Assembly (NCBI GenBank): GCA_021802645.1
Contig: JAJZRO010000004.1
Coordinates: 1-64,000, forward strand
DNA from: Deltaproteobacteria bacterium
Lineage (GTDB): Bacteria; Desulfobacterota; Desulfobulbia; Desulfobulbales; Desulfurivibrionaceae
Direction: 5' to 3'
DNA: 64,000 bases
Below are positions 22,289 to 63,903 of the stretch, one piece after another. Position 1 is the stretch's first letter, and the number at the start of each line of letters is the position of its first letter. Below the pieces are notes generated by a model. The model made no database searches and had not been told where the DNA came from. It was given only the letters and a program-made list of their open reading frames with translations. The position numbers and the translations under genes were made by a program.

Positions 22289-23422
22289 ATGTCCTTGACC
22301 GCGAATCTGCCCCGAGACGCCTTTCTGGCGGCCCTTGCCTCGTTACAAAACGTGACTGGGAAAAAGGGCACCATCGCCATCCTGGCCAACATCCTTATCG
22401 AGTCGCAGGATAGTGGTGTTTTGCTCACCGCCACCGATCTGGAGATTGGCATCCGCATAGTCGTCCCTGCCGAAGTCCTCAGTGCCGGCGCCATTACCCT
22501 GCCGGCCCGCAAGCTCTTTGAAATGGTACGGGAATCGAGCGCCGAACAGATTCACCTAGAGGTCAAGGAAAACAACTGGGCCAGGATTACGGCCGAGTCC
22601 ACCAATTACAAGCTGGCCGGCATGCCCAGTGACGAGTATCCCGCCTTTCCGGAATATGACGAGGCCAATCTGGTCCAACTCGCCAGTGAAGAGGTCAGGG
22701 ACCTCATCGACCGCACCCTTTTTTCCGTGGCCCAGGAGGGCGAGAGCCAGTTCAACCTCACCGGCCTTCTGGTGGAAAGGGATGTTGTGGAGGGCGAAGG
22801 GCATTTCCTGCGGGCCGTCTCCTCGGACGGCCACCGCCTCACCATGATGGAAAAGAAGGTGGCCAGCGACCTCTCCCCCCTCAAGATGGACCGCACCATC
22901 CTCATCCCCAAGAAAGGGGTGCAGGAGATCCGGAAATTCTGCGACAACAAGGAATCCCTGGCCATCGGCTTCGAGGAGAAACAGGCAGTGGTCAAGACCG
23001 AGGGGGCGATCCTCATCATTCGCCTGATGAACGGCGACTTCCCTGATTACAAAAACATCATCCAGGTAATCAATAAGGCCCGCCACATCGCCATCCCGCG
23101 GCAGCCGCTGATGAATTCCCTGAAACGGATGAACCTCTTCACCGAGGATCGCTACAACGCGGTGCAGTTTCTCATCGGCAAGAACCGGCTGATTCTCTCC
23201 TCCCAGAATCTCGACATCGGCAGCGCCAAGGACGAACTGGAGATAAGCTACGACGACCAGGAGATGCAGCTCGGCTTCAACGGCAAATATTTTATCGAGG
23301 CGATCCAGGTCATGGAGAGCGAGGTGGTCAAGGCCTACATCAACTCCGAGGAGAGCCCCTGTCTCATCCAGGGCGATGACGATCCCGGGTACATGAGTGT
23401 CATCATGCCGATGAAGATATGA
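22289..23422 (+). CDS. dnaN: DNA polymerase III beta clamp
   Basis: 377 residues forming the ring-shaped sliding clamp that tethers Pol III. The three topologically similar domains are recognised through VTGKKGTIAILANIL in the first, DRTLFSVAQEGE in the second and the C-terminal RRMN-like region; the terminal VIMPMKI resembles the conserved VIMPMRL tail. It starts the dnaN-gyrB-gyrA block; no dnaA or recF is in the window. Confidence 0.95.
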   Translation: MSLTANLPRDAFLAALASLQNVTGKKGTIAILANILIESQDSGVLLTATDLEIGIRIVVPAEVLSAGAITLPARKLFEMVRESSAEQIHLEVKENNWARITAESTNYKLAGMPSDEYPAFPEYDEANLVQLASEEVRDLIDRTLFSVAQEGESQFNLTGLLVERDVVEGEGHFLRAVSSDGHRLTMMEKKVASDLSPLKMDRTILIPKKGVQEIRKFCDNKESLAIGFEEKQAVVKTEGAILIIRLMNGDFPDYKNIIQVINKARHIAIPRQPLMNSLKRMNLFTEDRYNAVQFLIGKNRLILSSQNLDIGSAKDELEISYDDQEMQLGFNGKYFIEAIQVMESEVVKAYINSEESPCLIQGDDDPGYMSVIMPMKI

Positions 23423-23475
23423 GGATGCCATGACGGATCTGTCACAGTCGTTCAAACAAATCCACCACAGAGTGA

Positions 23476-25890
<2,415 letters not shown>

Positions 25891-25915
25891 TTTCATCTAA
25901 GGAAGGTATATTTCC

Positions 25916-28435
<2,520 letters not shown>

Positions 28436-48930: not shown

Positions 48931-49537
48931 GATGCTCCTCAGGCGCGGAGACCGTCGGTCCAGCCGGCCGAGGCGGACAAGAGCCGCTTGGCCAGGGGGT
49001 GGAAGTCGTCTTTGCTCCTTCGCGACGAAGGTCGGAAGCGACGACCACAAATTCAAGAGGCAAGGCCGGGTATCCCTTAAAAACATCCACACATGCTGGC
49101 CCGACCGCCAGGGTCTTGGCAACAGCCGCCGGCCGCGTTCACGGCGCACGGCCACGACCGGCTTGTCGCGGCGGCTATTCTCGCCGCCGAATCGGGTTGG
49201 TATTTTCCGGACCGTATCTTCACGGTACGGGCGGGCGCCCTTTTTGTCAATGGGCGCCGTAGAATGGCGGCCGCCTTCCATGCACCCCGGGAGGGTCCCC
49301 GCCCCCATGGGGCCATACCATCGAAGCGGCCGAGGTTGAGGGGCCGCGGGGATGACGGCGGGGGGAAGGGCGGGTTACGCCACGAGAAAATGCGACAAAG
49401 TGTTTTCGAATACCGCGAAGTGGACTATAATCGTGACGGCTGCCACCGCCCCGCAGCGTGTGAGCGTTCATGGTCGCGGAACTCCGTGGCCCCTGCGTGG
49501 TGGGGCGAGGTCATTGAGAAGCAACGACGAGGGGTCG
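48931..49537. promoter_or_regulatory. Divergent intergenic region with candidate promoters
   Basis: 607 bases between the PPDK-like gene (-) and the polyketide-like cluster (+). Seen: a 7-bp hairpin (49234-49240 / 49252-49258) preceded by a short accgt/acggt hairpin, a - strand TTGACA at 49245-49250 that may be the PPDK -35, and a + strand tataat at 49426-49431 with weak upstream -35 ttttcg (49403-49408), about 110 bases before the first cluster gene. No gene was recognised. Promoter calls are tentative. Confidence 0.35.
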
Positions 49538-49972
49538 ATGGGGAGACTGATGCCGAGCGCGACCGCCGGGCCGCCGCCGCGCGGTGGGGTGGAAAACGTG
49601 TGGGGGTTCGTGGTCGCAACCGAAGGGGTACACCCGGCGGGTGACGGCGAGCTGACGGCCCGGATGACAGCGGCGGCCGAATCTCCCTGGTTTTCCGGCC
49701 ATTTCCCCGGCAATCCGATCTTGCCGGGAGTCGCCCAGCTCAAAATGGTGGCGGACCTTCTTGCCGCTGCCGGCAAAAATCTCGGCCGCCCGGTCGGCTT
49801 GAGTCGGGTCAAGTTCAGAAAGATCATCAAACCCGGAGAACTACTTGACATTCACCTAACAATCGGCAAAGTTGAACGGCAATATGTATTCCGGATAACC
49901 TGCGGCAACGAGGAGGTTTGTTCCGGGATGATGTTTTTCGCCCAACCCGATGAAGAAACAGAGGTTCCATGA
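49538..49972 (+). CDS. FabZ-like hotdog protein (first gene of the cluster)
   Basis: 144 residues from ATG 49538 (alternatives: 49550 or GTG 49589). A hotdog fold with GHFPGNPILPG matches FabZ/FabA-type dehydratases, His55 being the catalytic His. At the +14 position, where FabZ has Glu and FabA has Asp, there is Lys69 (LKM), so dehydration may be altered or absent. The next gene, the ACP, starts within the stop codon (ATGA), showing coupling. It probably acts on ACP-bound intermediates. Confidence 0.75.
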   Translation: MGRLMPSATAGPPPRGGVENVWGFVVATEGVHPAGDGELTARMTAAAESPWFSGHFPGNPILPGVAQLKMVADLLAAAGKNLGRPVGLSRVKFRKIIKPGELLDIHLTIGKVERQYVFRITCGNEEVCSGMMFFAQPDEETEVP

Positions 49973-50235
49973 GCAACGACATTCTTCAGAACATCACCCG
50001 CATCGCTGAAATCATCATCAACACCCTGAAACTGGAAGATGTCACCCCGCAAACCTTTGATGCCGATCTCGATCTGGTCGATGAAGTCGGCATTGACTCC
50101 ATGGATCTGGCGACCATTGCGTTGGTGCTCCGCGATGAATACGGCATCCGGATCGACGAAGACGACTATCCCAAGCTCACCACCGTACGGCGCATCGCGG
50201 AATACATCCATACCAAGCTCACCAGTGGTAAATAA
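49969..50235 (+). CDS. Acyl carrier protein
   Basis: 88 residues. The phosphopantetheine attachment Ser44 is in VGIDSMDLA (canonical DSL altered to DSM). Acidic helix II is present. A dedicated carrier for the cluster, not the primary fatty-acid ACP, because it sits inside it. Starts inside the stop of the hotdog gene and is followed one base later by a GTG. Confidence 0.92.
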   Translation: MSNDILQNITRIAEIIINTLKLEDVTPQTFDADLDLVDEVGIDSMDLATIALVLRDEYGIRIDEDDYPKLTTVRRIAEYIHTKLTSGK

Positions 50236-51291
50236 GTGACGGCAGTGGCAACGGAGTACAAATTCTCCGAGATCATCGCGAACCCGGCGATCAAGGAACG
50301 GTGGGACAAGGTCCGCCGCTATTTTTTCCTCCGTGAATCCACCTATGACATGACCAACCGCTGCAATATCCGCTGCGAGGGGTGTTATTACTTTACCGGC
50401 GAGAAGCAGGGCGCCGCAGAAACCAAGAGCCCCGAGGCCTGGAAACGGCTCTTGGAGGAGGAAAAGGCCCGGGGGATCACCTTTGTCGTCCTTGCCGGGG
50501 CCGAACCCTCACTGGTGCCGGAATTGTGCGCGGCCTGCCATGAAGTGATCCCCCTGGGCGCCATCGCCAGCAACGGCCTGAAGCCGCTCCCCCGCGAAAT
50601 AGAGTACCGGATCCATCTGTCGGTGTGGGGGAATGACCGAACCAGCCTTGCCATTCGGAAGGCCCCGGATATGCTGGTGCGGCAGGTGGAAAATTATCAG
50701 GGCGACCCCCGGGCCATTTTTGTGTACACCTTCACCCCCGTCAACATCGAGGAGGCGAGGGAGGTTACGGAACTCCTGGCGCGGCAAGGGTTACAGATCA
50801 CCTTCAACATGTTTTCCGCCCCGGTGGGTTATGGCGGGCCACTGCGGCACACCGCCGCCACCCTGGCCAGAACGGCGCAGGTCATGACCGAGTTGCTTGC
50901 CGAGTACCCGGAGACGGTCGTGTTTTCTCCTTACAACATCCTGGCCCACACCCGGCCACAGGGGCTGCATGCGCTGTTCTCCTGCTCCTATCCCCGGATG
51001 AATCAATCAACGGACATCGGGCTCGGCCGATCGTTTCGCCAGTATCGCACGGACCTGCGGTGGGATCGCGACGCGGCCTGCTGCGTTCCGGATACCGACT
51101 GCGACGACTGCCGGCATTACGCCGCCGGCAGCGCGGTGGTCACCGCCAGAATGTACCGTCACGCCACCGATCCAACGACCTTTTCCGCCTGGCTCGATTA
51201 TGTGGACACCTATCTGGCCGTCTGGGTGAAAGGATATAAAAAAGGGACCAACCTCTGCGCGACACCCGTTATCCCGTCGTCGAACCAATAA
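50236..51291 (+). CDS. Radical SAM enzyme A of the cluster
   Basis: 351 residues from GTG 50236. The [4Fe-4S]/SAM site is CNIRCEGC (Cys43, Cys47, Cys50), preceded by YDMTNR, and an LAGAEPSL SAM-binding motif follows (about 87-94). Five C-terminal cysteines (C250, C282, C283, C289, C292) may bind an auxiliary cluster. The product may be C-C bond formation, methylation or dehydrogenation of an ACP-bound acyl chain, but I cannot tell. Starts directly after the ACP stop. Confidence 0.85.
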   Translation: MTAVATEYKFSEIIANPAIKERWDKVRRYFFLRESTYDMTNRCNIRCEGCYYFTGEKQGAAETKSPEAWKRLLEEEKARGITFVVLAGAEPSLVPELCAACHEVIPLGAIASNGLKPLPREIEYRIHLSVWGNDRTSLAIRKAPDMLVRQVENYQGDPRAIFVYTFTPVNIEEAREVTELLARQGLQITFNMFSAPVGYGGPLRHTAATLARTAQVMTELLAEYPETVVFSPYNILAHTRPQGLHALFSCSYPRMNQSTDIGLGRSFRQYRTDLRWDRDAACCVPDTDCDDCRHYAAGSAVVTARMYRHATDPTTFSAWLDYVDTYLAVWVKGYKKGTNLCATPVIPSSNQ

Positions 51292-51312
51292 GTGCTTTTG
51301 GTATAACTCATC

Positions 51313-52311
51313 ATGAAAACGGTCAGTTCCCTGCTGGATAGTCACTGGTACGAACGGTATAAGAAAATTTCCAGGCTCAATATCCGGAGCTCCATCTATG
51401 ACGTGACCGACCGGTGTAACCTGCGCTGCAAGGGGTGTTTCTTTTTCTCGTCAGGCGAACACACGGTGGCTTCGGAAGAAAAGGACATCACCAAGTGGCA
51501 CGCCTTTGTCGAAAAAGAAATGGCGCGCGGCGTGAACCTGGCCATCCTCATCGGCGGCGAACCCACCCTCTGCCTGGATCGCATCGAGGCCTTTTACAAG
51601 CGGTTGCCAACCTTCTGCGCCACCAACGGGCAAATCAAGGTGCCCCGCGACCGCTTTCCCGACATGATGGTCGGCATTTCCCTCTGGGGCGATACCGAGG
51701 ATGAAGTCACCCTGCGCGGCAAGGATACCTTCAAGATCTCCAGCGCCAACTACGCGGGCGACCCCCATGCCTATTATCTGTACACGATCACCCCCAAGCA
51801 GTTGGGCAAGATAGAAAAAATGATCAAGAGGATTGCAGACGTCGGACTGAAGGTTCATCTGCAACTCTTGTCAAACGACGAGAGCGTGGACGGTTTTTCC
51901 TGGCAGCCGGCGGAACTCGTCGCCGTGCGCGCGGAAATGGATGCGATGCTGGATGCGTATCCGCGGACCGTGATTTCGTCGAAGTATTATCACCAGATCA
52001 TCACCTCGGGCGAGATGCTGGGGCGGCGCTTCGGCTGGATGGAATGCCCGTCGGTCACCGACGCCATCGACAAACGCGAGCCCCAACCCAAACGGCTTAC
52101 CAATTTTATCCGCTGGGCCTCGGATCTGAAAACGATGCACCGCTGCTGCACCTCGGAAACCCGCGACTGTTCCACCTGCAAAGACGGGGCGGCCCACATG
52201 AGCTGGGTCATGGTCAACAAAAGGGCCCATATGCAATCGGCGGCGGATCTGCAGAACTGGATAGAGGTGTACGAAATGTTCGCCAAACTTTACCAGTTCA
52301 TCCCCTGGTAG
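51313..52311 (+). CDS. Radical SAM enzyme B of the cluster
   Basis: 332 residues. CNLRCKGC (Cys35, Cys39, Cys42) with the preceding YDVTDR, and LIGGEPTL as the SAM-binding motif. Shares the C-terminal cysteine pattern of its neighbour: C245, C278, C279, C286, C289. Paralogous to radical SAM A, but diverged. Starts 21 bases after the A gene's stop. Confidence 0.85.
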   Translation: MKTVSSLLDSHWYERYKKISRLNIRSSIYDVTDRCNLRCKGCFFFSSGEHTVASEEKDITKWHAFVEKEMARGVNLAILIGGEPTLCLDRIEAFYKRLPTFCATNGQIKVPRDRFPDMMVGISLWGDTEDEVTLRGKDTFKISSANYAGDPHAYYLYTITPKQLGKIEKMIKRIADVGLKVHLQLLSNDESVDGFSWQPAELVAVRAEMDAMLDAYPRTVISSKYYHQIITSGEMLGRRFGWMECPSVTDAIDKREPQPKRLTNFIRWASDLKTMHRCCTSETRDCSTCKDGAAHMSWVMVNKRAHMQSAADLQNWIEVYEMFAKLYQFIPW

Positions 52312-52333
52312 GATCCGCCAAGGAGCGGCGGTG

Positions 52334-53584
52334 ATGGCCCCCAAAGACGCGGTTGTTGTCGGCTACGACGCCATCTCTCCCCTGGGAAGCCATCTTGAAA
52401 GCCAATGGGAACAAGCGCTCGCGGGCAAAAGCGGCATCGCGCCACTGACCCGCTTTCCCCTGGGCCATGATTTCCCGGTGAGGATCGCCGGTCAGGTTCC
52501 TGCCATCGACGACGCGGATTACCCCTTTCTTTCCGCCCGGCACCAAGCGGCCTGGAGTTCCCCGGTCTTCAAATATTCCATGCTGACGGTGGCAAGGGCG
52601 CTGGCGCAGAGTCGGATAGAAATCCTTCCCGCAATCGCGCCGCGGGTGGCCGTGACATACAGCTCCGCCATTGGCGGGCTCGATGCGGTCTTGGCCGCCG
52701 ACCGCGAACTGCAGCGGGCAAACAAGCTGCCCCCGCCGTATGCCAACCCCAACTCCTGCATCAATATGATCGGCGGGAAAATCGCCATCCAAACCGGGGC
52801 CAGGGGACCCATCACCTCCACCATCTCGGCCTGCGCGACCGGGCTGACCTCGATGCTCATCGGCGCCATGTTCCTCGCCCAGGACAAGGCGGATGTGGTT
52901 ATTTGCGGTGCCGTGGATTTTGCCCTGGTGGAACCGATCGTGGCCGGGTTTTATACCATGAACGGCGTATATACCCCGAAAGAGGGCCAGGAACACGGCC
53001 CGCCCGAAGCGGCCAGCCGGCCCTTTTCTGCAAATCGCCGGGGGTTTGTGCTTTCGGAAGGCGCCGGCGCGGTGATTCTGGCTACCAAGGAATTCAGCCA
53101 GGCCCACGGCCTGCACCACAGCGTCGAGCTTGCCGGCTGGGGGATGACCTCGGATGCCCATCACTTCGTGGCCCCGTATTTCGAGACGGTCAGACAGTGC
53201 ATGGCGGAGGCCATCAACGATGCGGCCATTTCCCCGCAGGACATCGATGTGGTGAACGCCCATGCCGCCTCGACCAAGGTGGGCGACAAGGTGGAATACG
53301 ATGCCCTGAAGGCGGTTTTTCATGAATCGCTGCCGCCGGTCTGTGCCAACAAGTCCCTGATCGGCCATGCCATGGGCGCCTCCAGCGTGATTGAAACCAT
53401 TTTCGCCCTCAAGGGGTTGCAGGAAGGGCTGGTGCCACCGACCATCAATTACCTGCCTGATCCTGAACTCGATCTCGATTGCGTGGCCGAGGGGCAGCGA
53501 CGCGTCCAGCAGGAATTTGTGCTGAAAAATGCCTTTGGCTTTGGCGGATGTAACAGTTGCGCGGTGTTCAAGAGAACCGACTGA
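52334..53584 (+). CDS. Beta-ketoacyl-ACP synthase (KS1)
   Basis: 416 residues from ATG 52334 (GTG at 52331 also possible). The complete Cys-His-His triad is present: Cys167 in SACATG, His310 in NAHAAST, His345 in IGHAMGA. FabF/KAS II type condensing enzyme extending an acyl-ACP with malonyl-ACP. The ribosome binding site aggag is 5-8 bases upstream. The next gene is another KS, 13 bases on. Confidence 0.9.
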   Translation: MAPKDAVVVGYDAISPLGSHLESQWEQALAGKSGIAPLTRFPLGHDFPVRIAGQVPAIDDADYPFLSARHQAAWSSPVFKYSMLTVARALAQSRIEILPAIAPRVAVTYSSAIGGLDAVLAADRELQRANKLPPPYANPNSCINMIGGKIAIQTGARGPITSTISACATGLTSMLIGAMFLAQDKADVVICGAVDFALVEPIVAGFYTMNGVYTPKEGQEHGPPEAASRPFSANRRGFVLSEGAGAVILATKEFSQAHGLHHSVELAGWGMTSDAHHFVAPYFETVRQCMAEAINDAAISPQDIDVVNAHAASTKVGDKVEYDALKAVFHESLPPVCANKSLIGHAMGASSVIETIFALKGLQEGLVPPTINYLPDPELDLDCVAEGQRRVQQEFVLKNAFGFGGCNSCAVFKRTD

Positions 53585-53597
53585 CCCTTAACACGCG

Positions 53598-54863
53598 ATG
53601 AAAGCGCCGCAGAACAGAAAGGTTTTTGTCGTCGGGTATGGCGCGGCCACCGCCCTTGGCCGCACCTTCGAGACCACCTGGGACGCGGCCTTAGCCGGCC
53701 GCACCGGTTTGCGCCGCATCACCCGCTGTGAGGTGCTCACCCGGAGCAACATCGTCGGCGAGATTCCGGACTGGGATCCCAGCCGTCTTGACTATGTGAG
53801 CAAGAAAGAGGCCTCGCTCTGGGATGCGGCCTACGTCTTTCTTACCATGGAGGCCTGCCGGGCCGCATTGGCCAATGCCGGACTGGTCATCGACGAAGAA
53901 ACCGGCCCCCGGACCGGTTGCCTGATCGGTTCCGCGCTCAACGGCACCGACGCCTACCGCATCGCCGTGAATAATTACGTCAACCAGGGGCCCCTCAAGG
54001 TCAGCCCCTATCTCTTGCCGAATGTCTGCGCCAATCTTCCCGCCGGCAAGGCCGGCATGCTTCTAGGTTTTTCCGGCCCCATCTTTTCCCCGCAAGGCGC
54101 TTGCGCTTCCGGCAACCATGCCATTGCCATCGGCGCGCGGATGATCCGGGACGGTGACTGCGATTTCGTCCTGGCCGGCGGCGTTGAAACCTGCCTCGTG
54201 CCGGAGATCATCCAAGGCTTTGCCAACATGCTTGCCACCATCAAGGTCGACGCCAGGGATCGCGCCTTCAACGATCCGGGTCAGGCCTCGCGGCCGTTCA
54301 GCCTGGACCGCAAAGGCTTTGTCCTGGCCGAGGGCGCCGGAGTGTTGGTGCTGGCCGCGGAAGAGTCGGCCCGGGCCTTTGGTTTGACGCCCAAGGCCGA
54401 GGTGGCCGGCATCGGGTGGAATTCGGATGCCCATCACTTTACGCGTCCCAACCAAAAAACCATTGTCCGGGCCATCCAGGCGGCCATCGAGGATGCCGGC
54501 CTTTCTCCTATGGACATTGGCGCGATCAATGCCCACGGCACCTCAACCCAGGCCGGGGACACCACCGAGGCAGGGTGCCTGCGCGAGGTGTTCGGCGCCG
54601 GCCTGCAACACATTCCGATCTCGGCAAACAAATCCCAAGTGGGCCATAGCCTCGGCGCCTCGGCGGCCATCGAGGCGGCCCTGGCCATCGAGGCGATGGG
54701 CAAGGGAATCGTGTTGCCCACCGCCAATCATCTCCCCGACCCGGCACTCAGCGATTTGGATGTCGTTCCCAATCATGCCCGCAACCATGCGCATGAGTTT
54801 GTGCTTTCCAATTCATTCGGCTTCGGCGGCACCAACTGCTGTCTCATTTTCAGGGGAAAGTAA
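53598..54863 (+). CDS. Beta-ketoacyl-ACP synthase (KS2)
   Basis: 421 residues. Cys169 in GACASG, His313 in NAHGTST and His350 in VGHSLGA form the triad, so it is an active condensing enzyme rather than a chain-length factor without Cys. Diverged from KS1. The stop overlaps the next ATG by one base, implying coupling with the thioesterase. Confidence 0.9.
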   Translation: MKAPQNRKVFVVGYGAATALGRTFETTWDAALAGRTGLRRITRCEVLTRSNIVGEIPDWDPSRLDYVSKKEASLWDAAYVFLTMEACRAALANAGLVIDEETGPRTGCLIGSALNGTDAYRIAVNNYVNQGPLKVSPYLLPNVCANLPAGKAGMLLGFSGPIFSPQGACASGNHAIAIGARMIRDGDCDFVLAGGVETCLVPEIIQGFANMLATIKVDARDRAFNDPGQASRPFSLDRKGFVLAEGAGVLVLAAEESARAFGLTPKAEVAGIGWNSDAHHFTRPNQKTIVRAIQAAIEDAGLSPMDIGAINAHGTSTQAGDTTEAGCLREVFGAGLQHIPISANKSQVGHSLGASAAIEAALAIEAMGKGIVLPTANHLPDPALSDLDVVPNHARNHAHEFVLSNSFGFGGTNCCLIFRGK

Positions 54864-55342
54864 TGCGACCAAAACCATTTATTCCGGAACCGCTGGGCAC
54901 GCCATCCATTGTCAGGGACAAAAACAGCGGCAAGGTATGGCATCGTTGCGAACAACGCACCCTCTACGCGGACACGGATCGCTCCCGGGTGGTGTATCAT
55001 GCCAACTACCTGCGATATTTCGAATTCGGCCGGGCGTCGCTCATGCGGGACGCGTCCTATCCGTATAAAAAAATTGAAGAAAGCGGCTACATCTATCCCA
55101 TCATCAAAACCGAACTCAACTATTATTCCCCCCTCTTCTATGACGACCTGATCTATATCCACACCCGGCCGGCCGGCCTGGAGCTGGTCACCTTGCAGTT
55201 TGACTACCTCATCACCAAGGCAGAGAGCGGTGAAATTGCCTGCACCGGGTTCACGCGGCATTGCGCCGTCAACGAGAAGGGTATTCCCGTGGAGATCGAC
55301 GCGAAGACGATCCGGCTGTGGGAGGAATTCCCCCGTTCATGA
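54863..55342 (+). CDS. YbgC/4HBT-like acyl thioesterase
   Basis: 159 residues. Single hotdog fold with the signature YADTDRSRVVYHANYLRYFE (about 35-54), the YbgC/4-hydroxybenzoyl-CoA thioesterase motif. It probably releases or transfers the finished acyl chain. Overlaps the KS2 stop by one base; its own stop overlaps the next gene's ATG (ATGA). Confidence 0.9.
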   Translation: MRPKPFIPEPLGTPSIVRDKNSGKVWHRCEQRTLYADTDRSRVVYHANYLRYFEFGRASLMRDASYPYKKIEESGYIYPIIKTELNYYSPLFYDDLIYIHTRPAGLELVTLQFDYLITKAESGEIACTGFTRHCAVNEKGIPVEIDAKTIRLWEEFPRS

Positions 55343-56226
55343 CCTCCTCCTCGCAGACGCCGCTTGTGCTCGCGATCCAGCCATGGTTTGCCGACCACTG
55401 TTTCAACGGCACAACCGTGCTGCCGGCGGTCGAAACCATGGCCTTGCTCGCGGTGGCGGTGGCCGAGGCCCATCCCGAGATCGCCCTTCAGGTCATGGAA
55501 GAGGTGCGGTTTTCCAAGTTTCTTGAAATTCCGCCGGGCGCCACCGCGATGGAGGTCATCCTTGAAGGCGTGCGGCATGAAGATGGTTCGCTGCAGGCCA
55601 GGCTGCTCAGCAGAAAACAGCTCAAGATGGCGACTCGGCTCACGGAGCATGGCGAAGTGCGGTTTCCCTTGGCGGCATCCCTGCCCGAACTGACCACGGA
55701 ATCCCCCTTGGACCCAGGGGCTGCCGACAGCGCGGTCATAGAAATTCCGGCGGCGCGAGTCTACGCGGAGCTGGTCCCCTTTGGCCCTGGGTATCATACT
55801 CTCCAGGGTACCCTGCACCTTTCTGGAGGAAAGGCCTGGGGCAGCCTGCGGGCTCCAACATTCGCGGCGCCGGCCAATCTCCCGAAAAGCCTCGGCTCAC
55901 CGTTTCCGCTGGACGGCGCTTTTCATGCGGCCTGTGTCTTGGGCCAATGCGTGGTGGATTTTGTGCCCTTTCCCGTAGGGCTTGACAGGCGGGTCATCCT
56001 CCGGCCAACCCAACCCGGCGGGAACTATCTGGTCCGGGTCGAACTGCGTGGCCAGACGCGGAACGAACTGGTTTTTGATCTGGAGATTCTTGACGACACG
56101 GGGCGGGTGTACGAAACGGTCAGCGGGGTACGGATGCGGGATGTGAGCGGGGGACGCAGCAAACCACCAGGGTGGATCAGAAATTCTTTGGCGTCCCCGC
56201 CCAAGCAAGGAGTTTTTCCATGGTGA
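55339..56226 (+). CDS. PKS-type double-hotdog dehydratase
   Basis: 295 residues. N-terminal motif HxxxGxxxxP: H20-CFN-G24-TTVL-P29. C-terminal DxxxH/Q: Asp192-GAF-His196 in the segment PLDGAFHA. These are the catalytic His and Asp of polyketide-synthase DH domains. A stand-alone DH acting on ACP-bound hydroxyacyl chains, possibly giving polyenes. ATGA overlap upstream. The last 50 bases overlap the convergent 56177-56635 gene. Confidence 0.8.
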   Translation: MTSSSQTPLVLAIQPWFADHCFNGTTVLPAVETMALLAVAVAEAHPEIALQVMEEVRFSKFLEIPPGATAMEVILEGVRHEDGSLQARLLSRKQLKMATRLTEHGEVRFPLAASLPELTTESPLDPGAADSAVIEIPAARVYAELVPFGPGYHTLQGTLHLSGGKAWGSLRAPTFAAPANLPKSLGSPFPLDGAFHAACVLGQCVVDFVPFPVGLDRRVILRPTQPGGNYLVRVELRGQTRNELVFDLEILDDTGRVYETVSGVRMRDVSGGRSKPPGWIRNSLASPPKQGVFPW

Positions 56227-56635
56227 TCCGGGTAAGCCACCGGAAAAAAAGCAGCGAGTAGGCGGCGCCGCAAAGATACATGCCGAGCAGAAAGACCAGG
56301 TGCGACAACCCATAGGTCAAGGGTCCTCCCACGACCACGATCCACGGCGTATGCAGCTTGACGGAGAGAATGCCGAGGGCGGCGACGGCGGGCCAGCCGA
56401 TAATATAGCTGACCATGATGGCCCCAAGGCCGCCAATCACCCTGAGGCTTGGTTTTTCCTTAAAGGCGGAAAGGTCGGTCCGCTCCTCGATGGCGGAACG
56501 AACAAAGGCGGTGGCGGCAATTTTCTGGATACTCTGCCTGATCACGTTGGGTGTCCCATGGAAAGAGTGTTCGACACAGCCCGGCGTTTCCATTAAATAC
56601 CTAAAATACCTCGGCCCTGCGAGGCCTTCAATCAT
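56177..56635 (-). CDS. Antisense small membrane protein inside the cluster
   Basis: 152 residues (an alternative ATG at 56593 gives 138). The second half has three hydrophobic segments (about 65-85, 87-107, 110-132) and a basic C-terminus. No recognised family. Its 3' end overlaps the DH gene by 50 bases and its 5' end lies 8 bases from the divergent glycosyltransferase gene. The position in a + strand operon is unusual. Confidence 0.55.
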   Translation of the reverse strand: MIEGLAGPRYFRYLMETPGCVEHSFHGTPNVIRQSIQKIAATAFVRSAIEERTDLSAFKEKPSLRVIGGLGAIMVSYIIGWPAVAALGILSVKLHTPWIVVVGGPLTYGLSHLVFLLGMYLCGAAYSLLFFRWLTRITMEKLLAWAGTPKNF

Positions 56636-56643
56636 TAAACAGT

Positions 56644-57363
56644 ATGGCGACCATGCATTTGCCTGATCCCTGGGCTTTTTTCGACAAGATTTATTGTATT
56701 TCCGTCGATGTGCGCCTTGACCGGCGAGCGGAGGCGCAGAGGCAATTTGCCGCGGTCGGCCTCCTCGAGCGGGTGGAGTTTGTCATTGTTGCCACCCACC
56801 CCGAGGACAGGGAAAAAGGAATTTTTGAATCCCACATGCTGTGCCTGAAGAAAGGCTTGGCGGCCGGCGCCAAGCATATCCTGATCTTTGAAGACGATAT
56901 AGTGTTCCGTCACTTTGACCGGCGCATTCTTGCGGAGGCCTGCGCCGCGTTAGGGCGTTTTCCGACGTGGAACGCCCTTTTTCTCGGCTGCCTTACCTCG
57001 GGAAGCCAGAAGCTTGCAGGTTCGCTGGCGACCATAAAATACCGCTGCCTCGCCCATGCCTATGCGCTCAAGGCGCCGTTTGCCGAGCGCCTTGTCCAAC
57101 AACCATGGCAGGGTGTTCCCTATGACGGCGTGTTGCGACGGTGTGCTGCCGATTTTTTTGCCATCTATCCCATGTCCGCGTTTCAGGGCGGCGCCGAGAC
57201 CGACAACCAAACCATGACCATTGACCGAATCCGCAGATTTTTCGGCGGCCTCGTCTTGATCCAGCAAATGAACGAATTTTATCAAAACCACAAGCCGCTT
57301 GTGGTTGCCATGCATTTGGCCATTTTCCTGGCGCTTATCCTGTTGGTCAGCGTGTGGCGATGA
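56644..57363 (+). CDS. GT25-like glycosyltransferase with C-terminal membrane anchor
   Basis: 239 residues. The N-terminal IYCISVDVRLDRRAEAQRQF and the acidic EDD (LIFEDDIVF, about residue 81) are typical of glycosyltransferase family 25 (LPS-type). A hydrophobic segment (about 219-237) at the C-terminus suggests membrane anchoring. It may glycosylate the lipid-like product. Its stop overlaps the next ATG (ATGA). Confidence 0.75.
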   Translation: MATMHLPDPWAFFDKIYCISVDVRLDRRAEAQRQFAAVGLLERVEFVIVATHPEDREKGIFESHMLCLKKGLAAGAKHILIFEDDIVFRHFDRRILAEACAALGRFPTWNALFLGCLTSGSQKLAGSLATIKYRCLAHAYALKAPFAERLVQQPWQGVPYDGVLRRCAADFFAIYPMSAFQGGAETDNQTMTIDRIRRFFGGLVLIQQMNEFYQNHKPLVVAMHLAIFLALILLVSVWR

Positions 57364-60300
57364 AAAAAAGCATGATGAACTACCGCCTGCTGCTGCTTAC
57401 GGTCGTACTGATCATCGGCTGTGCCGCTCTGGGTAAAATGCGCCTTGAGATCGACACGGACGTGACGCGGGCATTGCCAGCCAGCGAACCGGTCGTTGCC
57501 GACGCCCTGGACATCTTCAGGCACCACCCCATCCAGGATCAGGTCGCCGTCGACATCATGCTCAACCGCGACGATCAGGATGCCCTGGCGGCATGCGGCA
57601 CCCTTCTTGAGCAGAAGATGAAGGCGAGCGGACTCTTCGCCCAGGTCGGCACCGATGCCATGGGGGCGCTTTTCCCGCGTCTTGTCTCGCAGGTGGCCAG
57701 AGATCTGCCCTTGCTCTTTTCCGGCGAGGAATTGCAACAGGTCGCCCCGCTGCTGGAGCCGGCCCGCATCAACGAACGGCTGACCAAGCTGCATGAGGAT
57801 TTGGGGGGGCTGGAGGGAATTGGTCAGGCGGAGTTTGTTGCTCTTGACCCCCTGGGGCTGAAGGATCAGCTCCTTGGCAAAATGGCCTTGCTGGCGCCTA
57901 CCCTGAATGCCAAGTTTTACAAAGGCCACCTGTTCTCCGGCGATGGCCGTCACCTGCTGGTGACGGGAAAACCGCTGACCGCGGGAACCAACACGGCGGC
58001 GGCCCGTAAACTGTCCGCCTTCCTTGCGCAGGCCGCGCAAGAGATTGCGCACCAGTATGCCCGGCAGGGGCTCCAGGTAACCATGACCCCGGTCGGGGCG
58101 TATCGAGCCGCACTTGACAACGAAACCATGATCCGCCATGACGTGCAGTTTGCCCTGGTCATGTCAACCGTGGGCATTGCCCTGCTGCTGATCGTGTCTT
58201 TCTCCAGGCCCCTGATCGGCCTGCTGTCTCTGGTGCCGTCCTTCGTCGGGACGGCCGCCGCCCTTTTGGTCTATTCCTTCTTTCGTTCTTCCATCTCGAT
58301 CATGGTGCTCGGCTTCGGCGGTGCCCTCATCTCCATCACCGTGGATTACGGCATCGCCTATATGCTGTTTCTTGATCGCCCCAACGAAACCAAGGGCAAA
58401 GAGGCGGCCCATGAGGTGCGGGTGGTCGGGATCATGGGGATGGTGACCACGGCGGCCGCTTTTTTGGTGCTGTGCGGCAGCGGCTTCCCGCTTTTTGCCG
58501 AACTGGGGTTGTTCTCCGCCATCGGCGTGCTCTTTTCCTTTCTCTTTGTGCACACGGTGTTCCCCAAGATTTTTCCGGTCATGCCGCCGGGGAAGGACAG
58601 CGCGCCGCCCCTGTATGCATTTGTCGATACCCTCTACAACACCGGCACCACCGGGGCCATCGCCGCGGCGGTGCTTGCCGCTGGTCTGCTCTTTTTCGCG
58701 CGGCCACAGGTTCAGGTCAGCTTAGACAGCATGAACACGGTCAGCCAGGACACCCAGGCGGCCGACGCCTTGTTCACCAAGGTCTGGGGGAAGCTCGATA
58801 ACCGCATCTTCATGATGACCCCGGCCGCGACGGTCGCTGCCATCCAACAGCGCGACGACCGCGCCCTGGCCCGCCTTGAGGAGGATATCCGGAAAGGCAC
58901 CGTTGCCGCGGCCTTTGTCCCGTCGATGTTCTTTCCCGGCAAGGAGCGGGGGGAACAGAACTTGGCCGCCTGGCATGCCTTCTGGGATAGGGGTCGGGCG
59001 GCAGAGGTCAGGAAGGCGCTTCTCGGTGCCGGCCGCCGGCTCGGCTTTACCCCGGAGGCCTTTGCTCCCTTTTTTTCGCGCCTCGAACCCGGATTTGCCA
59101 TGCAACCGCAGGAAATCCCGAAAGAATATTTCGGGTTGCTGGGGATTTCCCAAAATACCCGGGAGCCCGGCCTGCTGCAGTTTATCACCGTGACGCCGGG
59201 AAAAAACTATGATGCCGCCGCTTTCCGGGCCCGCTATGGCCGGGACAGCAAAATCTTTGATCCCACCTTTTTCGCGCAACGATTGGCCGATCTGTTGTTT
59301 ACCACCTTTACCTCCATGTCGGTGATTATCGCCATCAGCGTGGCCCTGCTCCTCTTCTTCGTCAACCTGGACCTGCCGCTGACGCTTTTGACCCTGTTGC
59401 CCTGCGCTTTTGCGTATATCTGTACCCTGGGAACCATGAAACTCCTCGGCCAGCCCCTGGATATCCCTTCGCTCATGCTGTTGTCCATCACCATCCTTGG
59501 CATGGGCATCGACTATCCTATTTTTTGCGTGCGGGGCCACCAGCGATATCGGGATGTTGCCCATCCATCGTATGTCCGGGTGCGCAGCAGCGTCTTTCTC
59601 TCCAGCACCTCCACCATGATCGGCTTCGGGGCCCTGTGTTTCGCCGAGCATCGTCTGTTGCAAGGCATTGGTATTGTCTCCCTGCTGGGCATCGGGTATT
59701 CCCTGCTCGGGACCTTCCTGCTGCTGCCCCCCTTGTTGCAACGCCATTTTTCCGGCCCACCGAAGAAGGCCGGCGAGGTGGCCAGGGGTCTTTTTGCCAG
59801 CGTCCGTCGCCGGTTTCACACGGTGGAGGCGTACCCCAGGATGTTCGCCCGTTGTAAGCTGTATTTTGATCCCCTCTTCGAGGAGCTGCCGAGGATGCTG
59901 GCCGCCCGCCAGGAGATCAGAACGATCATGGATATCGGCTGCGGTTACGGAATTCCCGCCTGCTGGTGCCTCGAAAAATTCAGCGATGCACGGGTCGTCG
60001 CCCTGGAACCGGACCCCGAAAGGGTGCGGATCGCGGGCCTGGCCCTGGGTGAGCGCGGGACCGTCACCCAGGGCTGGGCGCCGGATCTGCCAGCCCTGCC
60101 GCACGGTCTGGCCGATGTGGTTTTTCTGCTGGATATGCTCCATTATCTGGATGACGCGGCGACCGCGGTGGTCTTTCGCAAAAGCGCCCAATCCCTTGCC
60201 CAGGGAGGAATTCTGGTGGCCAGATACACCATCCGGCCGGCTGGCAAGCCATCGTGGTCGTGGCGGCTGGAGAACGCCCGGGTCCAGGCGGCGGGTCAAG

Positions 60301-60446
60301 AGGCGTGGTATCGGTCACCGGAGAGAATGGTTCGCCTCATGACGGAGGCGGGCTTTACGGTCATCGTCAACGAAAAGGCCACCGATCCTGAGTTGGCGTG
60401 GATCGTGGGCATGAACCAAACAGAGGCTGCGCGTGCGTCCCTTTAG
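57360..60446 (+). CDS. MMPL-family exporter fused to a C-terminal methyltransferase
   Basis: 1028 residues. Residues about 1-805 are an RND-superfamily MMPL transporter with about 12 transmembrane segments and two periplasmic domains. Residues about 815-1028 are a class I SAM-dependent methyltransferase (motif I IMDIGCGYGI, Asp858; VVALEPDPERV). It probably exports and perhaps methylates the acyl product at the membrane. ATGA overlap with GT25. The next gene's GTG overlaps its last 14 bases. Confidence 0.85.
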   Translation: MKKSMMNYRLLLLTVVLIIGCAALGKMRLEIDTDVTRALPASEPVVADALDIFRHHPIQDQVAVDIMLNRDDQDALAACGTLLEQKMKASGLFAQVGTDAMGALFPRLVSQVARDLPLLFSGEELQQVAPLLEPARINERLTKLHEDLGGLEGIGQAEFVALDPLGLKDQLLGKMALLAPTLNAKFYKGHLFSGDGRHLLVTGKPLTAGTNTAAARKLSAFLAQAAQEIAHQYARQGLQVTMTPVGAYRAALDNETMIRHDVQFALVMSTVGIALLLIVSFSRPLIGLLSLVPSFVGTAAALLVYSFFRSSISIMVLGFGGALISITVDYGIAYMLFLDRPNETKGKEAAHEVRVVGIMGMVTTAAAFLVLCGSGFPLFAELGLFSAIGVLFSFLFVHTVFPKIFPVMPPGKDSAPPLYAFVDTLYNTGTTGAIAAAVLAAGLLFFARPQVQVSLDSMNTVSQDTQAADALFTKVWGKLDNRIFMMTPAATVAAIQQRDDRALARLEEDIRKGTVAAAFVPSMFFPGKERGEQNLAAWHAFWDRGRAAEVRKALLGAGRRLGFTPEAFAPFFSRLEPGFAMQPQEIPKEYFGLLGISQNTREPGLLQFITVTPGKNYDAAAFRARYGRDSKIFDPTFFAQRLADLLFTTFTSMSVIIAISVALLLFFVNLDLPLTLLTLLPCAFAYICTLGTMKLLGQPLDIPSLMLLSITILGMGIDYPIFCVRGHQRYRDVAHPSYVRVRSSVFLSSTSTMIGFGALCFAEHRLLQGIGIVSLLGIGYSLLGTFLLLPPLLQRHFSGPPKKAGEVARGLFASVRRRFHTVEAYPRMFARCKLYFDPLFEELPRMLAARQEIRTIMDIGCGYGIPACWCLEKFSDARVVALEPDPERVRIAGLALGERGTVTQGWAPDLPALPHGLADVVFLLDMLHYLDDAATAVVFRKSAQSLAQGGILVARYTIRPAGKPSWSWRLENARVQAAGQEAWYRSPERMVRLMTEAGFTVIVNEKATDPELAWIVGMNQTEAARASL

Positions 60447-61320
60447 GCCGTCCTTGGCCGAAACCATCGGCGTTGCCGCCTTGCTGCTGGCGTTGCCGGT
60501 CGCTTTCTGGAGTCCGGCCCTGGCCATCGTGGTTCTGTCCCTGTTTCTGCTTTTTTGCGTGACAGCGCCCTTTTTCCCGGCGTTCGGTTTTTTCCTGCCG
60601 GTGATCCACCGGGGCGCGCCGGAAGACAAGCAGGTTGCCCTGACCTTTGACGACGGGCCCTGGCCAGCCTCCACCCCCGTGTTGCTTGACCTGCTTGCCC
60701 GGTACCATTTGAAGGCCACTTTTTTCGTGGTCGGGCAGCAGGCCGCGCAACACCCGGAACTGATCGCTTTGATCCTCCGGCAGGGGCATGACATCGGCAA
60801 CCATTCCCTCCGGCACGACCCCTTCCTTATGCTGCGGACGCGCAAGACCCTCCATACGGATATTCAGGCCACCCAAGAAATTTTAAAAAGGAACGGGGTG
60901 ATCCCCTTGGTGTTTCGTCCCCCCTCCGGCATCACCAACCCCCGGCTCAAAGGGGTGCTTGCCGCGGAAAACCTGCTCGCCGTCACGTACAGTTGCCGGG
61001 CCCTTGATGGCGGCAATCGCAACGTGCGCAACTTGGCGGGAAAAATCCGCCGCCGCCTCCACCCGGGCGCCATTGTCATGCTCCACGATGTTCCGCCCCG
61101 GCAGCCCGCCATGACCGAGCGCTGGCAACAAGAACTCGACATCCTGTTTACCGCGTTACGGCAGGAGTACCACGTTGTCTCTTTGGAAAAGCTCATCCAC
61201 CATCCGGTCTGTGCACGCATTCCAATAGCCGATGGCTTTTCCCCGCGCGAGCAAAACGCGCTGGCCGGCGAAGACACGCCGGGCGCGCAGACGGCCCTGG
61301 CGCAACTTTCAAAGCCGTAA
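60433..61320 (+). CDS. Polysaccharide deacetylase (NodB family) with N-terminal membrane segments
   Basis: 295 residues from a GTG overlapping the MMPL gene. Two N-terminal hydrophobic stretches (about 11-55). NodB motifs: TFDDGP (catalytic Asp and metal Asp), HSLRHD (metal-binding His pair) and RPPSG. A carbohydrate N-deacetylase acting at the membrane, probably on the sugar of the cluster product or a surface glycan. Confidence 0.9.
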   Translation: MRPFRPSLAETIGVAALLLALPVAFWSPALAIVVLSLFLLFCVTAPFFPAFGFFLPVIHRGAPEDKQVALTFDDGPWPASTPVLLDLLARYHLKATFFVVGQQAAQHPELIALILRQGHDIGNHSLRHDPFLMLRTRKTLHTDIQATQEILKRNGVIPLVFRPPSGITNPRLKGVLAAENLLAVTYSCRALDGGNRNVRNLAGKIRRRLHPGAIVMLHDVPPRQPAMTERWQQELDILFTALRQEYHVVSLEKLIHHPVCARIPIADGFSPREQNALAGEDTPGAQTALAQLSKP

Positions 61321-61445
61321 TCGAGGCCGTCTGGTATAAGAAGAGACAGGCGGCAGAATTCGAGTCATCGAGGCAGGGGAGTCGCGGTTCCCCTCAACGA
61401 CCCAAAAAGCGGGCCTTCCTGGCTGCTGACCACACGAGAACGGCC

Positions 61446-62879
61446 ATGCGCGGCAAACTTCGATTCCTGATTATTCTCGGCCTGCTCGGCTACTGTTTCG
61501 CCTTTCAGGGCGCGCGCGGCCTATGGGAGCCGGACGAAGGCCGCTACACAGCGGTGGCCATGGAAATGCTGCGCGACGGGAACTGGCTGCAGCCGAGCCT
61601 GCACCCCGAGCAGCCGCACTGGACCAAACCGCCGCTCACCTATTGGGCGATCGCCGCCAGTATTGCCGGTCTGGGCCGCAACGAATTCGCCGCGCGTTTC
61701 CCCTCCACGCTGGCCTTTTTCCTGACCACCCTCCTGGTCTATCTCCTCGGCCGGCTCTTTCTTGCCAAGAGGCCCTGGCTGGCACCCCTTGTCTATGCCT
61801 CCTTCCTCCTGCCGGCGGTGGCGAGCAATATCATCACCACCGACGGGTTGTTGACCTTGTGGGAAACGGCGGCCCTCTGCGCCTTTGCGTATGCGACGTG
61901 GGGCGAGAAGAGGAGCGCCGCGTCCACCTGGCTGGTGTTGATGTGGGCGGCCTTCGGCGGTGCCTTTTTTACCAAGGGGCCGCCGGGTCTGTTGCCGCTG
62001 GCCGCCATCGTCGCCTACCGCTACTGGCCGGGCAGCGGTGCGCCTCCGCTACGGTGGCGCACCGGATTACTCGTCATGCTGGCCGTGGCGCTGCCGTGGT
62101 TTGTGGTGGTGGTGGCCAAGCATCCGGCCCTGATCGACTACTTCCTCGTCCACGAGGTCTACGGCCGGGTGGTCACCGGCGAGCACAGCCGCAACAGCCA
62201 ATGGTACAAGGCCTTTGTCATCTACCTCCCCGTCCTGTTGCTGGGCACCCTGCCATGGACCTTCTGGCCGGTTCGCGCGGTTTCTCGAGCGGTCCGTGCC
62301 CTGCGGTGGCCACCCAAGGCGCCGCAGGATCGTTCCCAGGACCAGGAGCTCTTCCTGCTGCTTTGGGTCCTGCTGCCCCTGGTGGTCTTCATGGTGTCGA
62401 GCTCTCGCCTGCCGCTCTACCTGCTGCCCCTCTTTGTGCCCCTGGCGCTTCTTGCCGCCCGCGGCCTTGAGGCGTCGTCCTTTGTCTGGACGCGGTGGCG
62501 GGTGGCCGGGGTGGTGCTGTGGTGCCTGCTGCTCGTCGCCCTGCGACTCATCGCCGCCAGGGTGCCGACCACGAAGAATGCCGCTCCCCTGGCGCGGGCC
62601 ATCGCCGCCCTGCATGTCACGCCGTTCTCGGAGGTCGCCTTTTATGGGACCGATCCGGTGCACAGTATCAATCTGTATCTCGACAAGGAGGTCGAGGATG
62701 TTTCCGCAGCCACCTTGGATGACGAGCTGCTGGAGGATGAGGTGACACTGTGGGTGGTGCCGCCGCCGATTGTTCCCTCGTTTTTGCAGGAGGCGGTGCG
62801 CTACGGGAAGGATTTCCAGACCGTTGGCAGCTTTGGCGACCGCTACGTCTTTCTGCGGGAGCGGCCACCAGCGCGGTGA
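61446..62879 (+). CDS. GT39/ArnT-like polytopic glycosyltransferase
   Basis: 477 residues with about 10-12 transmembrane segments. The N-terminal periplasmic loop motif WEPDEGRYTAVAMEML and WTKPPLTYW are typical of ArnT/PMT-type GT-C enzymes that use a polyprenyl-phosphate sugar donor. It may transfer the sugar onto an envelope lipid. It begins 125 bases after the deacetylase; the gap shows no terminator or gene. Confidence 0.9.
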   Translation: MRGKLRFLIILGLLGYCFAFQGARGLWEPDEGRYTAVAMEMLRDGNWLQPSLHPEQPHWTKPPLTYWAIAASIAGLGRNEFAARFPSTLAFFLTTLLVYLLGRLFLAKRPWLAPLVYASFLLPAVASNIITTDGLLTLWETAALCAFAYATWGEKRSAASTWLVLMWAAFGGAFFTKGPPGLLPLAAIVAYRYWPGSGAPPLRWRTGLLVMLAVALPWFVVVVAKHPALIDYFLVHEVYGRVVTGEHSRNSQWYKAFVIYLPVLLLGTLPWTFWPVRAVSRAVRALRWPPKAPQDRSQDQELFLLLWVLLPLVVFMVSSSRLPLYLLPLFVPLALLAARGLEASSFVWTRWRVAGVVLWCLLLVALRLIAARVPTTKNAAPLARAIAALHVTPFSEVAFYGTDPVHSINLYLDKEVEDVSAATLDDELLEDEVTLWVVPPPIVPSFLQEAVRYGKDFQTVGSFGDRYVFLRERPPAR

Positions 62880-62925: not shown

Positions 62926-63807
62926 TTATAGCCGGCGATATGCGGCGAGCAGGTCGTCGAGGGACTCGATGGCGTAGGGATCGAGAGCCAAGAGGCGGGC
63001 CGCGGCCTGGTAGATCAGGGTCGGGGTCACGCCTGCTTCGCGCATGGCGTGGAGCGAGAGGGCGTTGTCCGACTTCGAGAGCTTCCGGCCCCCTTCGCCG
63101 GGGATGAGGGCATGGTGGTGGAAGGTGATGGCCCGGAACGGCGCGCCGGTTGGGCCTAGCTTGCTTGCCAGAAAGAGTTGTGCCGCGGTGGAGGCGAGGA
63201 GATCGGCACCCCGCACGATGCAGGTGATGCGATCGTCCAGGTCGTCGACCAGGCTCGCGAGTTGGTAGGCGGGCTGGTGGTTCCGTCGCCAGAGCACGAA
63301 GTCGCCCATGAGGGAGCCAAGGGGGACTGCCGCGCTGCCGACCTGGACCACGGTTTCCGCCGGCACCCCGACACGGATGGCGTGTTCGCCGTCCGGCACC
63401 TCTCGCCGCTCCCGGCAGGTGCCGGGGTAGAGGCCGGTGGCCGATTGCGCCCGGATCTCCTTGCGGGAGCAGGTGCAGGGGAAGAGGGCGTTCGTGGCCG
63501 AGAGTTCGGCGAGCACCGCCCGGTAGCGCTCCCGGCGCAGCAGTTGGGAGTGGTGGTGCTGGAAGTCCTCAGGACCGCTGGGTCCCTCCTCCCAGGTGAT
63601 GCCGAGCCAGTCGAGCTGACGAAAGATGTCCTCGATGTATTCCGGCTGGGTGCGGTCGCTGTCGGCATCGTCGATGCGCAGTTTCAGGGTGCCTCCCGCT
63701 GTGCGCACCCTGAGCCAGGTGAGCAGAAAATTCACCGCGTTGCCTAGGTGAAGGTAGCCGCTGGGCGTGGGGGCAAGGCGGGAGCGGAGGGGGGCAGAGG
63801 GGTTCAC
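62926..63807 (-). CDS. gluQRS: Glutamyl-Q tRNA(Asp) synthetase
   Basis: 293 residues; attaches glutamate to queuosine-34 of tRNA(Asp). It is a truncated class I GluRS paralog: HLGNA (HIGH-type), KLSKSD (KMSKS-type), and a CTCSR/GTC zinc site. Start GTG 63807 chosen because homology begins there and a gggagg site precedes it; the frame is open to 63891. Confidence 0.92.
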   Translation of the reverse strand: MNPSAPLRSRLAPTPSGYLHLGNAVNFLLTWLRVRTAGGTLKLRIDDADSDRTQPEYIEDIFRQLDWLGITWEEGPSGPEDFQHHHSQLLRRERYRAVLAELSATNALFPCTCSRKEIRAQSATGLYPGTCRERREVPDGEHAIRVGVPAETVVQVGSAAVPLGSLMGDFVLWRRNHQPAYQLASLVDDLDDRITCIVRGADLLASTAAQLFLASKLGPTGAPFRAITFHHHALIPGEGGRKLSKSDNALSLHAMREAGVTPTLIYQAAARLLALDPYAIESLDDLLAAYRRL

Positions 63808-63856
63808 GCCTCCCCTATACCGGAAAAACCACAGCGCGACAAGAGGACCCTTGTTG

Positions 63857-63903
63857 TTCCTTTTCTTTGCGTGCCCAAAGAAAGGAACCAAAGAAAGGGC
63901 ACC
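63857..63903. repeat. REP-like hairpin sequence at the window end
   Basis: ttccttttctttg (63857-63869) pairs with caaagaaaggaa (63876-63887) with one bulge, loop cgtgcc; a further caaagaaagggc overlaps with a second gtgccc/gggcac pair. Similar sequences are common dispersed repeats in proteobacteria (from memory). Positions 63808-64000 show no gene. Confidence 0.5.

Follow-up and report, generated by a model that had tools for sequence, protein, structure and literature searches.

The gene cassette at the locus

The 64,000-nucleotide stretch analysed here (the window: positions 1 to 64,000 of contig JAJZRO010000004.1, assembly GCA_021802645.1, from a Deltaproteobacteria bacterium) contains a compact group of type II polyketide synthase (PKS) and fatty acid synthase (FAS) genes that includes two radical S-adenosylmethionine (SAM) enzymes, here called rA and rB. 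Based on the comparison of this locus with its relatives and with the rest of the genome, we consider it likely that the window carries the second half of a scattered type II PKS/FAS pathway of the aryl-polyene (APE) type. An earlier reading of the DNA, made from its letters alone (the original prediction), had listed the genes between 49538 and 62879, and all of them were found to be present, in the order given:

49309..49537, no strand: intergenic region, likely the promoter region, judging by its position between the divergent PPDK-like gene (minus strand) and the cassette (plus strand)
49538..49972, plus strand: hot1, ApeI/FabA-like single-hotdog dehydratase (PF07977, 38 bits)
49969..50235, plus strand: acyl carrier protein (ACP) with the motif GIDSMD, its Ser 100% conserved (PF00550, 41 bits)
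50236..51291, plus strand: rA, radical SAM enzyme A (PF04055; CNIRCEGC at residues 43-50, C-terminal CCVPDTDCDDC at 282-292)
51313..52311, plus strand: rB, radical SAM enzyme B (PF04055 just below the cut-off; CNLRCKGC at residues 35-42, CCTSETRDCSTC at 278-289)
52331..53584, plus strand: KS1, FabF-type ketosynthase (KS) (TIGR03150, 330 bits, below its cut-off)
53598..54863, plus strand: KS2, FabF-type ketosynthase (TIGR03150, 375 bits, below its cut-off)
54863..55342, plus strand: TE, YbgC/FadM-type (4HBT) thioesterase, ApeK-like (TIGR00051, 79 bits, above the cut-off)
55339..56226, plus strand: DH, double-hotdog PKS-type (PS-DH) dehydratase (PF14765 and PF21089)
56177..56635, minus strand (antisense): small conserved membrane protein, with a homologue in 47 of 79 loci
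56644..57363, plus strand: GT25-like glycosyltransferase (PF01755, 27.6 bits, weak)
57354..60446, plus strand: MMPL/RND exporter-methyltransferase fusion (PF03176, PF13489, PF08241)
60433..61320, plus strand: polysaccharide-deacetylase-family protein (PF01522, 98 bits)
61446..62879, plus strand: PMT_2/GT39-like membrane glycosyltransferase (PF13231)

From hot1 to DH, neighbouring genes overlap or are separated by at most 21 bp, a compact, operon-like arrangement in keeping, for this part of the locus, with the single operon that had been proposed. The GT39 gene, on the other hand, is probably not part of the system, since it lies 125 bp past the deacetylase gene and does not occur in any of the 79 related loci of at least 14 kb that we compared (the long loci; some genomes are represented twice). 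The hot1 frame is open from 49352, with an upstream ATG at 49538, and alignment with its relatives places the start near the GTG at 49598, which may be the actual one; the DH frame is open from 55261, its most likely start being the ATG at 55339, which overlaps the TE stop codon. The exporter-methyltransferase is a genuine fusion, as had been claimed: a single frame of 1030 residues, with a predicted exporter at approximately 1-810 and a class I SAM methyltransferase at approximately 816-1030, kept fused in 15 of the 17 loci holding MMPL. The product of the antisense membrane gene had no match in Pfam or NCBIfam. In both KS1 (61 alignment rows) and KS2, the Cys-His-Lys-His catalytic set is 100% kept; judging by this full set, neither is a chain-length factor (CLF), and KS1 is predicted to be elongation-competent.

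The order hotdog-ACP-rA-rB-KS1-KS2-TE-DH is a conserved eight-gene cassette, kept in most of the other genomes read. The original prediction had named, as a point on which it could fail, the conservation of the two radical SAM genes with the KS and ACP genes, and the association holds across the long loci (rB in 79, ACP in 78, KS1 in 78, KS2 in 77, TE in 76, DH in 74 and hot1 in 68). The deacetylase is present in 56 of these 79 loci and the GT25-like gene in 10, mainly within the window's own order. When rA and rB occur together (110 loci), they are within 400 bp of each other in 101 cases, have overlapping start calls in 4 and are further apart in 5.

Within the window's order, rA is found in 47 of 146 genomes, with rB adjacent in most; of 395 genomes sampled from the phylum, 28 hold rA with at least 63% identity. 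GTDB r220 contigs, when scanned, yielded 329 rA relatives, mostly from Desulfobacterota. The 80 retained (in a ranking that favoured sequences distant from the window, so that its own order is not among them) came from Syntrophaceae, Smithella, Syntrophus, Desulfobacteraceae and other deltaproteobacterial metagenome-assembled genomes (MAGs), besides four MAGs of Spirochaetes and a single one of Planctomycetota. Of the four Spirochaetes sequences, three cluster together with strong support and lie on long contigs, which suggests a transfer (perhaps a single one) rather than mis-binning. Three loci of Spirochaetes MAGs (L134, L155 and L159) have extra genes after KS1, which in L155 and L159 lie between KS1 and KS2. 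In the Planctomycetota MAG (G525, locus L219, C88:1335-2321), the match to rB crosses two in-frame TGA codons, the only such case met for rB.

The radical SAM pair

rA and rB are paralogues (29% identity), and the cysteines of the CxxxCxxC motif and of a C-terminal CC-x-DC-x-C motif are invariant in both; for rA, the motif cysteines were invariant in two sets of divergent sequences (n=24 and n=36). Mean column identity among divergent sequences amounts to 75% for rA and 83% for rB (n=37), and the two proteins are more conserved than the ketosynthases. Neither matched a curated family. AlphaFold models of rA and rB had mean pLDDT values of 77 and 64, respectively, with low values around the cysteine motifs. 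The folds nearest to rA in Foldseek were those of BlsE, MoaA, SuiB and viperin (14-19% identity, TM-score of about 0.4-0.5), which have the radical SAM core in common with it at a similarity too low for family assignment. Searches of the PDB by sequence and by fold, as a route to the function of rA and rB, returned generic radical SAM relatives only. Because the order ACP-rA-rB-KS is fixed, we infer that the substrate of the pair is ACP-bound.

The probable other half of the pathway

In most relatives, hot1 is directly preceded by genes for a hotdog protein, an ACP, a KS-CLF and a B12 radical SAM enzyme of about 450 residues, or by part of this set. In the window's genome, such genes are found on other contigs. 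A block on contig C25 encodes LolA, a ketoreductase (KR), an ApeP-like hotdog protein, an ACP, a fused KS-CLF, two B12 radical SAM enzymes, an AMP ligase, a DegV-like protein, a GT2 glycosyltransferase and a homologue of lipid-A-type acyltransferases. The KS-CLF is a single open reading frame, whose KS half has Cys-His-Lys-His. The AMP ligase and ketoreductase, which the original prediction had reported as lacking, are indeed absent from the window but present on C25, and their absence is only local, since the pathway is scattered in this genome. A phytoene-desaturase-like flavin oxidoreductase is interrupted by the break between C25 and C16, whose ends share an overlap of exactly 127 bp. That C25 adjoins C10 instead, which we considered by analogy with a related genome (G061), was not supported, the end of C25 having no overlap with C10. 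Contig C10 carries an ApeR-like KS, an ApeD-like acyltransferase, two B12 radical SAM enzymes, a SPASM radical SAM enzyme, a KAS III-like protein and an ACP. Past the genes for the KAS III and B12 radical SAM enzymes of C10, the stretch L033:10588-13958 holds a BtrH_N/DUF4872 protein, an ABC transporter and a further ACP; a similar set is also present in L233, a locus with a SPASM enzyme of a second clade (clade II, described below).

In a related genome (G124), a single 32-kb stretch (C9:70475-102121) holds the KS-CLF, ACP, hotdog, KR, LolA, B12 radical SAM, AMP ligase, DegV, GT2, KS, acyltransferase, a further B12 radical SAM and SPASM genes, together with the whole cassette of the window, including the exporter-methyltransferase fusion and the deacetylase (51-87% identity). 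Across the 146 genomes of the order, 46 of the 47 rA-positive genomes have the KS-CLF, against 0 of the 99 rA-negative ones (Fisher p ~2e-37), and the C10-type SPASM enzyme is present in 45 of 47 and 0 of 99, respectively (Fisher p ~1e-35), p-values which overstate independence, the genomes being related. The pathway would thus be spread in this genome over the window's own contig (C4, its second half), C25 (continuing into C16) and C10, and the linked blocks carry at least six radical SAM enzymes. It could be argued that the cassette is a pathway of its own, which only happens to be found in the same genomes as an APE-type pathway encoded by C25 and C10, given that these parts lie on separate contigs here and that C25 joins C16 and not C10; nevertheless, the near-perfect co-occurrence and the fact that the parts are physically linked in many relatives, as well as in G124 and G061, make this very improbable.

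As a yardstick, the ape proteins of E. coli CFT073, whose gene roles were taken from PMC8253772, were searched with profiles built from the present system, and 12-13 of the E. coli components were matched, in agreement with the likeness to aryl-polyene clusters noted in the original prediction. From C10, the KS matched ApeR (5e-113); the KS-CLF matched ApeO (2e-78) and ApeC (8e-10). From C25, the KR matched ApeQ (4e-74), the GT2 ApeJ (1e-44), the AMP ligase ApeH (3e-44) and the hotdog protein ApeP (1e-14). The acyltransferase matched ApeD (1e-25) and LolA matched ApeL (1e-7), while from the window the MMPL protein matched ApeM (8.8e-28), TE matched ApeK (2.8e-22), the ACP matched ApeE (5e-9) and hot1 matched ApeI weakly (E 3.4e-5, from a single-sequence query). 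The matched features thus comprise the elongation pair (ApeO/ApeC), the priming KS (ApeR), the KR (ApeQ), the hotdog proteins (ApeI, weakly, and ApeP) and the envelope export set (ApeM, ApeL, ApeK, ApeJ and ApeD). Among the best PDB matches to the sequence of the KS-CLF are 7f28 and 6qsp, which we take to be APE ApeO:ApeC complexes.

These matches also bear on whether the system is a dedicated FAS II for an unusual, non-polyene acyl chain, such as a radical-SAM-modified acyl group of a glycolipid or lipopolysaccharide. Both KS1 and KS2 resemble FabF and have a complete set of catalytic residues, and a deacetylase, GT25, GT2 and the lipid-A-type acyltransferase homologue accompany the system, all of which would suit such a role. 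However, neither the cassette nor the linked blocks were seen to encode a recognisable enoyl reductase, and the KS-CLF, the ApeI/ApeP-like hotdog proteins and ApeR match the polyene pathway best, which leads us to regard a FAS II of this kind as unlikely.

Several observations weigh against an APE-type reading. The KS-CLF was recognised beside rA in only 31 of the 79 long loci, so that in other orders some of the APE half may lie elsewhere or have diverged. The profiles of the system gave no match to ApeA, ApeG or ApeN, nor the methyltransferase domain to ApeB, in searches that did not include the reverse search of the genome. Additionally, a starter supplied by an aromatic ammonia lyase (TAL/HAL) or by a chorismate lyase was considered, and neither family was found in the window's genome; an aryl starter is consequently not assured, and the product is perhaps not an aryl polyene. 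Finally, the structural comparisons gave no informative neighbour for rA or rB, whose models are weak around the cysteine motifs.

Ladderane-candidate loci and the proposed pathway

The original prediction had also remarked that the two radical SAM enzymes recall ladderane-type loci. According to Rattray et al., the fatty-acid clusters of anammox bacteria and of Desulfotalea psychrophila are extensively syntenic, including the radical SAM pairs Kuste3343/DP1855 and Kuste3342/DP1853, and no ladderanes were found in D. psychrophila (PMC2649909). The gene list of the cluster kuste3335-3352 is given in PMC4790861, where ladderanes were not detected in E. coli. Among 392 Planctomycetota genomes we took about 25 to be anammox, judging by their hydrazine synthase (single or double matches, frames of about 810-844 residues). 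rA and rB were found in none of these, and among all 392 only the MAG G525 has them. A ladderane identity of rA and rB themselves was therefore rejected; the best anammox match was an unrelated radical SAM enzyme outside the fatty-acid loci, beside a small conserved gene pair.

The partner enzymes behave differently. We read the fatty-acid loci of two anammox genomes, their genes being named after the kuste list by content and order, which makes these names provisional. The kuste3342-like B12 radical SAM enzyme is 34% identical over 462 residues to that of C25 (E 2e-88), the kuste3343-like SPASM enzyme is 47% identical over 337 residues to that of C10, and the FabG is 42% identical to the KR of C25. 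A second SPASM clade (clade II), 46-51% identical to the SPASM enzyme of the window's genome, is present in 24 genomes of the order, all of them rA-negative, and the anammox protein is nearer to this clade (50-53%) than to the C10 enzyme. All five clade II loci read carry a phenylacetyl-CoA-ligase (PCL)-like gene, three of them also a phytoene-desaturase-like gene. The order thus holds two mutually exclusive variants, the rA/rB variant of the window and one resembling the published ladderane-syntenic locus. The remark on ladderane loci therefore stands for the partner B12 and SPASM radical SAM enzymes, which are shared with anammox loci, and not for rA and rB; from these comparisons, the ladderane link is an indirect one.

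It could still be proposed that the locus is of the ladderane or polyunsaturated-fatty-acid kind described by Rattray et al., with the radical SAM enzymes making ladderane-like rings or anaerobic polyunsaturated lipids, since the genome has the B12 and SPASM enzymes, a FabG-like KR and the phytoene-desaturase-like gene of C25/C16, each of which also marks the loci of anammox bacteria and D. psychrophila. We consider this quite improbable, given the absence of rA and rB from the anammox genomes, the closer relation of the anammox SPASM enzyme to a clade found only in rA-negative genomes, and the lack of ladderanes in the syntenic D. psychrophila.

Beside one clade II locus (L232) lies a homologue, 65% identical, of the 1540-residue PPDK/PEP-utiliser protein which in the window is encoded divergently to the cassette (44686-49308, minus strand) and has a long N-terminal region with no Pfam match. 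On the other side, just beyond the cassette and near the window end, is a gene for a GluQ-like tRNA synthetase family protein (62926-63891, minus strand); dnaN, gyrB and gyrA, identified by sequence, are consecutive at 22289-28435 (plus strand). A tRNA and Rfam scan of the whole 64 kb gave no match.

An APE-type pathway with radical SAM tailoring remains the best reading, for a system which is apparently uncharacterised, strongly conserved and made of ordinary parts in an unusual combination. The analysis establishes its gene content, homologies, conservation, linkage and co-occurrence, and from there we infer the order of its steps and its envelope location. In this scheme, the ApeH-like AMP ligase would load a starter acid onto an ACP, the ApeR-like KS would prime the chain, and the fused KS-CLF (ApeO-ApeC) would extend it with malonyl units, the ApeQ-like KR and the ApeI/ApeP-like hotdog proteins leaving one conjugated double bond per cycle. 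The rA-rB-KS1-KS2-DH set, encoded with its own ACP, would process a carrier-bound chain, with rA and rB making a change dependent on C-H activation that has no counterpart in APE clusters. TE, the acyltransferases and the GT2 may then place the product on an anchor, either a lipid or a sugar, and its transport to the outer envelope may fall to the MMPL(-methyltransferase) exporter and LolA. More tentatively, and with some doubt on our part, rA and rB may be a dedicated pair performing undescribed chemistry on a carrier-bound polyketide or fatty-acyl chain (for instance, the production of an aromatic or alicyclic starter with no known lyase involved, or C-C bond formation within a polyene), and so define a class of anaerobic, radical-SAM-built polyene lipids together with B12 and SPASM enzymes common to anammox ladderane loci.

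The system would represent an anaerobic version of the APE type with at least six radical SAM enzymes in its linked blocks. Some of its enzymes are shared with the loci put forward as the source of ladderanes, lipids with an unsolved biosynthesis. When the rA/rB variant is set against the rA-negative one that bears PCL, the general radical SAM enzymes (B12 and SPASM) can be told apart from the product-specific ones, and the comparison provides relatives of the anammox enzymes from other bacteria. Additionally, because the supposedly missing enzymes are located elsewhere in the same genome, it becomes possible to test for a novel polyene-type lipid in the envelope of anaerobic bacteria.

With regard to known systems, the libraries and literature searched held no characterised cluster with this core, in line with the original statement that the combination was not recognised, and no description of an aryl-polyene cluster with radical SAM enzymes from Desulfobacterota turned up in paper searches; antiSMASH "ladderane" calls of unknown function have been reported in Desulfobacterota (PMC9902471). 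The anammox and D. psychrophila clusters resemble the present system in having homologous B12 and SPASM radical SAM enzymes, FabG, MMPL, a glycosyltransferase, a deacetylase-family protein and several KSs. Unlike it, however, both loci also carry a phenylacetyl-CoA-ligase-like gene, and the anammox cluster lacks rA and rB and has a SPASM gene of the other clade, whose genomes exclude rA. With the APE cluster of E. coli CFT073 (apeA-R), the system shares the KS-CLF, the ApeR-type KS, ACPs, ApeI/ApeP-type hotdog proteins, KR, AMP ligase, TE, acyltransferase, GT2, MMPL and LolA. It differs in that KS and CLF are fused, the genes lie at three places in this genome, and the MMPL protein is fused to a methyltransferase, and in its additional components, namely rA and rB, the SPASM and B12 radical SAM enzymes, two more KSs, the double-hotdog DH and the deacetylase; rA, rB, the B12 and SPASM radical SAM enzymes, DH, GT25, the deacetylase and the membrane protein have no counterpart in the E. 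coli cluster. Based on these homologies, the system probably works like the APE pathway and derives from the same stock.

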